64,000 bases of DNA from Thermosynechococcaceae cyanobacterium MS004 (lineage in GTDB: Bacteria > Cyanobacteriota > Cyanobacteriia > Thermosynechococcales > Thermosynechococcaceae). The DNA is taken from assembly GCA_022402525.1 (NCBI GenBank), contig JAKRSB010000099.1, forward strand, positions 1-64,000, written 5' to 3'. The notes under the pieces were generated by a model, which saw nothing but the letters and a program-made list of their open reading frames with translations, did not search any database and was not told where the DNA came from. Within the stretch, counting starts at the first letter, position 1; every line of letters begins with the position of its first letter. This document shows, piece after piece, positions 11,217 through 13,761 of the stretch. The translations under genes and the position numbers were made by a program.

Positions 11217-11510
11217 TTATTCGATCAGGTCTTGAATTTCTTTGGCAGCTTCGGCTAGGTTTTGAGCGTTGACGATTTTGTTACCTACGCCATTGCTAAA
11301 GTTTGATGCAGCTTGAGCAGGTTTTACAGATCTGGGTTCTGGCAAAGGCTGCTGGGTATCTTGCAACACTGCGATTAGACCTTCTAAGGCTTCTTGCCCA
11401 TTGGCGGCAGCTTCTTGGTAGATCTTGCCATGCGTGACAAACTGTTGCCAAGGAAAGTCTGGCAAGTGAACCAAGTACAGCTCATCTTTTTCCAACCACT
11501 GGATTACCAT
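11217..11510 (-). CDS. HicB-like antitoxin domain, orphan and chimeric
   Basis: Residues 1-60 match the HicB antitoxin fold (partial RNase H-like): MVIQWLEKDELYLVHLPDFP, then THGKIYQEAAANGQEALEGLIAVLQ and a final PLPEP. HicB normally neutralises the HicA mRNA interferase. No HicA-like gene (a 60-residue protein with a G-x-x-x-H patch) is found on either side. The remaining residues (from about 70, SNFSNGVGNKIVNAQNLAEAAKEIQDLIE) do not belong to HicB; they look like part of a different cyanobacterial gene fused in frame and then cut by a stop codon. It is probably a leftover rather than an active antitoxin, though the HicB domain itself is intact. Confidence 0.6.
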   Translation of the reverse strand: MVIQWLEKDELYLVHLPDFPWQQFVTHGKIYQEAAANGQEALEGLIAVLQDTQQPLPEPRSVKPAQAASNFSNGVGNKIVNAQNLAEAAKEIQDLIE

Positions 11511-11735
11511 CGGATGTTTAAGGTTTATTATTTGAGTTATCTTCCAAATTTCCGAGAGTTCTTAGGGCTTGTATCATTTGTTTTTCCAAATACTTAGGCG
11601 CGTCGTCTCTATCTTTACCTCAATGCCACTGAAATAGTCCGAAAAGACTGCTAAATATGAGTTACAGCTTCTTTTTCCATGTTCAATCATTAGCGATCGC
11701 TTAGCAACGACAGAATAAACCTCTCAGGGCAGAGG

Positions 11736-11866
11736 ATGGCACGGCCTAAAGCAAAAATTTAAGATCTGAAACAAGACAAGGAAAATAGCGAAGATGCTTG
11801 GAACTCTTATTTGGGGGCATGTATAAAGAATCTGATGATCCTTATTTCAGTGGCATTGAACTCTAG
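11736..11866 (+). pseudogene. Small decayed reading frame, unrecognised
   Basis: From an ATG preceded by GAGG the frame reads MARPKAKI, stops at a TAA (11760-11762), and continues in the same frame as DLKQDKENSEDAWNSYLGACIK. It then makes sense in the next frame as ESDDPYFSGIEL followed by a stop. One nonsense and one frameshift change would explain this. The surrounding gap (11511-11899) holds nothing else that I can support. It sits between two orphan antitoxin-like genes, which fits a patch of decaying toxin-antitoxin modules. Confidence 0.3.
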
Positions 11867-11899
11867 GGGTGCCAATTTGGATTATCGATAAGAAGATTT

Positions 11900-12208
11900 T
11901 CAGCTTGTGCGATCGCCTCGATCCTCAATCACCGTTTCTGACAGAGGCTTGCCAGAAATCTTCAGATTCTGAGTCATTTCTTGTAATGCTGCCTCAGAAA
12001 TCAATGGGACATTTTGACAATGCAGCGGTGACTGAATTCTGCCCGAAGCAATTAATGCCTGCAAAACATGCTCCTCTGACTGCGGAACGGTTGATGCTGG
12101 CGACACAGTAGGTTCACGGCTTGTCAGCTTTTCATTCAACAACAATCTCTCTTCCACAGGCAGCGAAAGAATAACCTGCATGAGCGATTCAACGAGCTGT
12201 ATATTCAT
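11900..12208 (-). CDS. Orphan antitoxin-like protein
   Basis: The N-terminus MNIQLVESLMQVILSLPVEERLLLNEKL is the signature of small cyanobacterial antitoxins that pair with PIN-type toxins (the usual form is MNxQLVExLxQxIxxLxxEERxLLxxKL). Here the protein is about 102 residues with an extended Ser/Thr/Pro-rich middle (residues 28-50) and a second helical part. The usual toxin gene, overlapping or directly downstream, is missing: no PIN-like frame is present below 11900. The ATG at 12208 is preferred over the TTG at 12229 because the family starts there. It is probably an orphan. Confidence 0.55.
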   Translation of the reverse strand: MNIQLVESLMQVILSLPVEERLLLNEKLTSREPTVSPASTVPQSEEHVLQALIASGRIQSPLHCQNVPLISEAALQEMTQNLKISGKPLSETVIEDRGDRTS

Positions 12209-12249
12209 GAACCTTAACCATAGCTCCAATTATTCTATCCGCTCAACCC

Positions 12250-12387
12250 GTGCGATCGCCCTTCAGCACAACGGGGCGATCGCAAGTGGTAACTATTCAG
12301 CGACCGGGCGAGAAATTTGAAGCTTTTCTGGCAGCGGCTGAAGATACCACTGCTGAATATCGAGATGCTTTGAAGGCACTGGCTTAA
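12250..12387 (+). pseudogene. Truncated antitoxin of the downstream Doc-like gene
   Basis: The frame ending at 12387 reads VVTIQRPGEKFEAFLAAAED, then TTAEYRDALKALA and a stop. This matches only the C-terminal toxin-binding tail of Phd/AbrB-type antitoxins, whose ends usually read (Y/F)xxALRALA. A DNA-binding N-terminal domain of about 45 residues should precede it but is absent. Upstream there is only a GTG-initiated stretch rich in HIP1-like CGATCG sites. The stop codon overlaps the toxin start (TAATG), the normal translational coupling of such pairs, so the junction with the toxin is original and the 5' part has been lost. Confidence 0.5.
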
Positions 12388-12770
12388 TGGGTGAACCCAA
12401 ATGGGTCAGACGCGACGCTGTTTTGATTGTCCATGACCGTCAAATTGAGCTGTTCGGCGATCAATATGGGCTGCGTGATCCTGGTGTACTCGACTTGGCG
12501 ATCGCACGGCCTAAAAATCCCTTCTTCTATGAAAAGGCTGGTATTACTAGGCTGGCTGCTGCCTACGGCTATGGCATTTGTCAAAATTATCCGTTCATCA
12601 ATGGCAATAAGAGAACTGCTTTCGTTGTCTCAGTTGCTTTTCTTAAGACTAACGGATTCCAATTCCAGGCTTCTCAAGTTGATGTGGTTTACACGATGCA
12701 GAATCTAGCTGACGGTATCCTCTCAGAAGAAGCTTTCACTGCCTGGATTAAAAAATACTCCCTAATTTAG
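12387..12770 (+). CDS. doc: Doc-like (Fic family) toxin with a substituted active-site motif
   Basis: The 127-residue protein matches Doc toxins along its length (LFGDQYGLRDPGVLDLAIARP, then the helix before the Fic motif, then NGNKRTAF). Doc kinases inactivate EF-Tu by phosphorylation and need His and Asp of the motif HPFxDGNKR. Here the motif reads Y68-P-F-I-N72-G-N-K-R: the catalytic His is Tyr (codon TAT at 12588-12590) and the metal-binding Asp is Asn. Both are single-transition changes. The protein is therefore probably inactive as a toxin, which fits the loss of most of its antitoxin. Length and the rest of the fold are intact. Confidence 0.82.
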   Translation: MGEPKWVRRDAVLIVHDRQIELFGDQYGLRDPGVLDLAIARPKNPFFYEKAGITRLAAAYGYGICQNYPFINGNKRTAFVVSVAFLKTNGFQFQASQVDVVYTMQNLADGILSEEAFTAWIKKYSLI

Positions 12771-12792
12771 AGTCAATTTGGTAGAGCATTGC

Positions 12793-13761
12793 TTACTGTT
12801 GAGAAAACACGAGCGTTAGACCCTTATCTGAGTAAAGGCGCAATTGACCGCCCGCGAGTTCAAAGCGTGTGGTTGCCTCAAGTAAGCGTAGAAAATTCGC
12901 TTCAAGCTGGCTGGCTTTTGCACTGAGGCAGGCGCGTCTTGTGGAGACAAGCTGCGAAAGCTTCAGCGTACTGCCATTTACTTCAAAGCTCCCAGAAAAG
13001 CGATTACAGCCGCTATCGCCAGATACTCGACGCGCTTGAGCGTCAAATTCTAGAGTGGGCTGACTTTCTCTCAGACGCTGCCCCGCAATTTCAGCGAGCG
13101 TCCAGCGCTTACTGGCAATTAAAGCAACGCTGCTGGGACGGCTGTCTGATGCTTGACTGCCTTCTGATGTATTCCCCTGGCACATCACGGCTGTATCGAC
13201 GCGGGTTGCGGTCAGGCTTGGTACATCGTCACGAACCAGAGCATAACTGACGCTGGCTAACTTTGACGGGCAGCAGAGCGGATCGGTTGCAGCATATCGG
13301 GCAAAGTCCAGCACGAAGTTGGTTTCGCTCACCAAACGCAGGGCAACCATTGCGCCATCTATACGGGAATTCATCAGCGTGGGTGATAAGGTTCCGGCAT
13401 ATCGGCCTTCCCAGTAAACGAAAGCCTGAAATCCAAGGGGGCGGCACATGCCATCAAATCCCGACAGCGCGGTCACGACGGTCGTTAGTCCGTAGCTCTG
13501 GGTTGCGCCATAGAGCCGCCAACCCCGTCTGACCAAGGCCGTCTCTGCGGGGCTAGCCGGTGGACGGATTTGTGCAGCACAGCGATTGTCAGTTGGACGC
13601 TCACGGGCAAGCGGGCTGGGTAAGCTGGGCAGATTGCCCTCTGGCCGATTCCAATTGGTTAGGGGTTGGTCTAGCCATATCTTGCTCGTTTGCGCCGATG
13701 CGGCAGAGCACAGCATCAAGCTGATCAAAGCGGCCGTCAAACTTTTACAGATCATCCGCAC
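12793..13761 (-). CDS. Secreted protein with LppP/LprE-like and META (HslJ-like) domains
   Basis: The 322-residue precursor has a Sec signal peptide (residues 1-23, ending SAASA-Q). Residues 60-195 resemble the LppP/LprE lipoprotein-type domain (C-A-A-Q-I ... WRLYGATQSYG ... CRPLGFQAFVYWEGRYAGTLSP), with paired cysteines. Residues 220-322 are a META domain: RWTLAEIAGQ, LEFDAQARRVSGDSGCNRFSGSFEV and LRLYSDKGLTLVF, as in HslJ, which is linked to stress and novobiocin tolerance in E. coli. The exact role is unknown; it should act in the periplasm or outside the cell. It stands alone, convergent with the Doc gene. Confidence 0.78.
   Translation of the reverse strand: MRMICKSLTAALISLMLCSAASAQTSKIWLDQPLTNWNRPEGNLPSLPSPLARERPTDNRCAAQIRPPASPAETALVRRGWRLYGATQSYGLTTVVTALSGFDGMCRPLGFQAFVYWEGRYAGTLSPTLMNSRIDGAMVALRLVSETNFVLDFARYAATDPLCCPSKLASVSYALVRDDVPSLTATRVDTAVMCQGNTSEGSQASDSRPSSVALIASKRWTLAEIAGQRLRESQPTLEFDAQARRVSGDSGCNRFSGSFEVNGSTLKLSQLVSTRRACLSAKASQLEANFLRLLEATTRFELAGGQLRLYSDKGLTLVFSQQ

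Follow-up and report, generated by a model that had tools for sequence, protein, structure and literature searches.

The window, the whole 64,000-nucleotide stretch of cyanobacterial DNA that we analysed, carries a gene for a homolog of the Doc toxin in which the catalytic His is replaced by Tyr. The question raised by this locus is whether the protein has lost its activity and, if so, whether it has been kept in another role or belongs to a module in decay. We consider it likely that this is a defunct type II module of an AbrB/MazE-type antitoxin and Doc, in which the toxin is catalytically dead, the antitoxin is truncated and decay is neutral.

The Doc homolog and its altered motif

The features of the toxin gene are as follows.

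12387 to 12770, plus strand: Doc/Fic toxin homolog of 127 amino acids, catalytic His replaced (Pfam, TIGR01550, AlphaFold2 model)
12459 to 12461, plus strand: G25D (GAT), third altered invariant position (G in 51 of 51 homologs)
12588 to 12590, plus strand: H68Y (TAT), equivalent to H66Y of P1 Doc, probably the decisive inactivating change (alignment, published mutants)
12600 to 12602, plus strand: D72N (AAT), equivalent to D70 of P1 Doc (D in 51 of 51 close homologs, N natural in some active Docs)

The reading frame at 12387-12770 on the plus strand is open and residues 67-76 read NYPFINGNKR. Its product matches Pfam Fic with 6.4e-13 (49.8 bits against a cut-off of 24) and TIGR01550 DOC_P1 with 2.5e-15 (56.7 bits against a cut-off of 38.65); by family assignment it is a true member of the Doc family. 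These matches confirmed the initial annotation, which had described a Doc with an intact frame and the motif YPFINGNKR at residues 68-76. No second Doc gene occurs in the genome, which is a draft assembly of 4.93 Mb in 150 contigs, with completeness rated at 100% and contamination at 0.05%; two longer Fic proteins are encoded elsewhere in it. HIP1 sites and the gene content point to a cyanobacterium as the source.

When the protein was aligned with P1 Doc, H66 corresponded to Y68 and D70 to N72, and N74, K75 and R76 are unchanged. A single transition, C>T or G>A, is enough to explain each of the codons of H68Y, D72N and G25D, the starting codon being CAY at residue 68 and GAY at residue 72, in agreement with the single transitions first proposed for the two motif positions. 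Besides H66Y, the D70N form of P1 Doc is also non-toxic, and we know of no Doc with this His-to-Tyr change that is active.

The H66Y form of P1 Doc is a known non-toxic mutant (PMC2686095) and the H68Y form of Salmonella Doc served as an inactive mutant (PMC9207808), so that the inactivation through H68Y put forward in the initial annotation is upheld. By analogy with these mutants, loss of catalysis in the window's Doc through H68Y is well supported, and phosphorylation of EF-Tu by this protein is therefore not expected. The same annotation had also taken both altered positions to be required for Doc catalysis, which is wrong for the second. In the literature the Doc consensus is given as HxFx(D/N)(A/G)NKR, so N fits this position (PMC4257102, PMC13034048); YPFINGNKR departs from it by the Tyr in place of His, N being permitted at position 5. 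Moreover, pneumococcal Doc, with HVFANANKR, causes a strong growth retardation that is neutralised by Phd, and the EF-Tu kinase assayed from E. faecalis is a Doc with HCFYNANKR. The E. faecalis Doc of structure 9vzc reads HCFYNANKR and is without GG at 24-25; from its family and motif we infer that it is the protein assayed in PMC13034048. On the evidence of these relatives D72N alone would not be diagnostic of inactivity, and the argument for an inactive protein is carried by Y68, because N72 does not necessarily inactivate it and D25 perhaps does not either.

We also built an AlphaFold2 model of the window's Doc from an alignment of 45 Docs. The model has a mean pLDDT of 97 and a pTM of 0.90, although AlphaFold2 tends to give the family fold regardless of point changes. 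Its best solved match is P1 DocH66Y with the Phd tail (3dd7; Z 20.3, rmsd 1.5 Å over 122 residues, TM 0.87), and because of this close match the scaffold is predicted to be intact. The initial annotation, which regarded the rest of the protein as intact, thus holds for the frame and the fold; it had overlooked G25D at an invariant position.

Conservation among homologs and parallel cases

The best homologs of the window's Doc, found in the genomes of relatives and of the class, have 45-47% identity; plasmid homologs are no nearer, and a protein search of the genome contigs gave no close homolog. The neighbours of the doc locus were not informative in a synteny comparison with relatives. H and D are both kept in 51/51 intact cyanobacterial Doc homologs, and their loss here is for this reason not attributable to chance. 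The alignment has 25 columns in which conservation reaches at least 80%; the window's Doc keeps 22 of them and differs at three (G25D, H68Y and D72N), each of them fully invariant among the 51 homologs. When each homolog was left out in turn, 47 of the 51 never differed uniquely at a column that was otherwise invariant, and four did so once, none of them at H or D; the window's Doc does so three times. Its terminal branch measures 1.91 against a median of 0.34, a length to which sparse sampling contributes.

The motif NYPF[IVM]NGNK was found in no other Doc among the genomes of 84,980 species, where the five matches are short chance frames, and it is absent from viral contigs. The viral contigs gave no match to YPF[IVM]DGNK, and none of their four matches to HPF[IVM]NGNK is a Doc. 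One cyanobacterial protein with HPFINGNK (L062) is no Doc either; it is longer and unrelated and looks like an enzyme. The viral Docs had been collected by an H..D motif and are uninformative on H/D variants; they were used for residue 25 only, where 71/74 have G.

Similar losses were observed in other cyanobacteria. An otherwise complete Doc (L064, 425-862, genome G045) carries the single change of H to Y (YPFVDGNKR) next to an intact antitoxin gene, and by its motif it is an independent, natural H66Y-like Doc. Another (L065) reads YPFVDGNK and is then ended by a stop. In the genus of the window, one doc has an in-frame stop just past the motif (L024, genome G002) and another has its antitoxin split between two frames (L020, genome G001). 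We regard these four as parallel losses, in draft genomes where some could be errors.

The antitoxin remnant upstream of doc

In relatives doc lies downstream of an antitoxin gene, whose product often has an AbrB/MazE-like half at its N-terminus and carries a C-terminal tail such as YRNALRELAK. Directly upstream of the window's doc we found no complete antitoxin, but only a C-terminal tail.

12316 to 12384, plus strand: putative antitoxin C-terminal tail FEAFLAAAEDTTAEYRDALKALA (HMM of 19 partner antitoxins), within the stop-to-stop frame 12211-12387
12251 to 12284, no strand assigned: perfect 11-nt inverted repeat on HIP1 (GCGATCGC), in the place expected for the region coding for the antitoxin N-terminus

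The frame reads ...RPGEKFEAFLAAAEDTTAEYRDALKALA and its stop overlaps the toxin start as TAATG. With the HMM of the 19 partner tails this segment ranks first in the 64-kb window with E 0.0021, the next one having 1.1; the match is a short one. A profile of the partner N-terminal halves gave no match nearby. At the level of the reading frames, the antitoxin gene has been truncated, with its N-terminal part (dimerisation/DNA-binding) lost and the toxin-binding tail kept, which therefore indicates decay of the whole module. No sigma-70-like promoter was matched in 11850-12900, no substitute full-length antitoxin was found in the genome, and the DNA upstream of doc has no second genomic copy beyond a 23-bp match containing HIP1.

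On its own, the Phd 52-73 peptide is sufficient to bind and neutralise Salmonella Doc (PMC9207808). Since the tail in the window, with 23 residues, has about the same length, it is conceivable that it provides, if translated, a residual neutralising peptide.

Elsewhere, a set of cyanobacterial Doc antitoxins (L050, L009, L042, L038 and L017) combines several N-terminal halves that look unrelated with a short C-terminal tail that terminates in a similar LA motif. Two minus-strand frames were also noted near doc. The first, at 11217-11561, is a HicB-like antitoxin frame (PF15919, 27.1 bits, right at the cut-off) with no obvious adjoining HicA, perhaps a second orphaned toxin-antitoxin part. The other, at 11900-12229, encodes 109 amino acids starting MELWLRFMNIQLVESLMQVILSLPVEERLLLNEKL, with no Pfam family and one weak match among close relatives; we take it to resemble small cyanobacterial antitoxin-like proteins.

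Fate of the module

One alternative is that selection has maintained the catalytically dead Doc for a non-toxic binding function. The protein could, for instance, act as a partner of antitoxin tails or as a sponge for them, and its ligand would be the short peptide upstream. The open frame, the fold predicted with a pLDDT of 97 and the preserved non-catalytic conserved columns fit such a role; in addition, DocH66Y binds Phd in crystals (3dd7), and the C-terminal segment of the antitoxin alone is able to bind and neutralise Salmonella Doc (PMC9207808). We nevertheless hold this to be unlikely, given that neither a further Doc nor a matching full-length antitoxin was found in the genome as a target, and that the leftover tail is without a convincing start or promoter. 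In a simulation on the ORF in which indels were ignored, about 20 neutral substitutions affected some 2.6 of the 25 conserved sites, and 51% of runs stayed free of stops, so the open frame is weak evidence for retention. The binding or decoy role suggested in the initial annotation has gained no positive support, and the truncated antitoxin, which had escaped notice there, suggests decay of the module. A minimal pair kept by selection, in which a peptide of about 30 amino acids made of the toxin-binding tail only would be co-translated with the dead Doc as a stable partner or antidote sponge, seems very unlikely to us.

Persisting toxicity by way of a different catalytic arrangement would agree with the retention of N74, K75 and R76 and with the activity of other Docs having N at motif position 5. 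It is highly improbable, since the H66Y and H68Y mutants serve as the reference for inactive Doc and an active toxin would be hard to tolerate beside a truncated antitoxin. We give equally little credence to sequencing or assembly errors as the source of the changes: the genome is a draft of 150 contigs, but three separate substitutions and, independently, the truncation of the antitoxin would all have to be wrong in an assembly whose completeness is rated at 100% and contamination at 0.05%.

Decay of the module is thus the reading that we prefer. The locus would derive from a type II module of an AbrB/MazE-type antitoxin and Doc, as in other cyanobacteria, that is now defunct. Doc would still fold, Tyr in place of the catalytic His removing EF-Tu phosphorylation; the antitoxin would have lost its N-terminal part, the tail staying in place, and neutral decay would have followed inactivation. 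Cell arrest would be expected from an active Doc whose antitoxin is ineffective, so presumably the toxin was the first to die, or else the leftover tail shielded the cell until the toxin was dead. All three changes lie within the nine fully invariant columns of the 25 (p about 0.04), and there is a weak hint of a targeted inactivation, in which loss of toxicity itself was favoured, over scattered decay. Against decay we counted this clustering in invariant columns, the open frame and excellent predicted fold, which are also expected under selection, the lack of a close relative (45-47% at best) and the short tail match (E 0.0021). In its favour we counted H and D in 51/51 homologs, three departures against none or one, the inactive H66Y and H68Y forms, an antitoxin reduced to its tail with no substitute, the lack of a sigma-70-like promoter, the long branch and the parallel cases.

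Among known systems, P1 DocH66Y (3dd7, 3dd9) shares the fold and has the equivalent His-to-Tyr change, but it is a laboratory form whereas that of the window is natural; P1 Doc itself has 25% identity to the window's Doc, and in P1 the residue D70 is kept and the Phd antitoxin is complete. The cyanobacterial AbrB/MazE-type modules (e.g. L003, L004, L034 and L039) resemble the window in gene order, toxin length and YRNALRELAK-type tail; their toxins, 41-47% identical to the window's Doc, keep H, D and G25, and their antitoxin is complete. The E. faecalis (9vzc) and pneumococcal Docs share N at motif position 5, but these are active Docs in which the catalytic His is preserved.

The window's Doc would therefore be the naturally occurring equivalent of the DocH66Y mutant made in the laboratory, and a new example of a known phenomenon. 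It illustrates how a chromosomal toxin-antitoxin module may be disarmed, by a point change of the catalytic His in the toxin and by loss of the front half of the antitoxin. For annotation, it warns that a match to the Doc profile does not equal a working toxin, and that a change of D to N alone should not be taken for inactivation.
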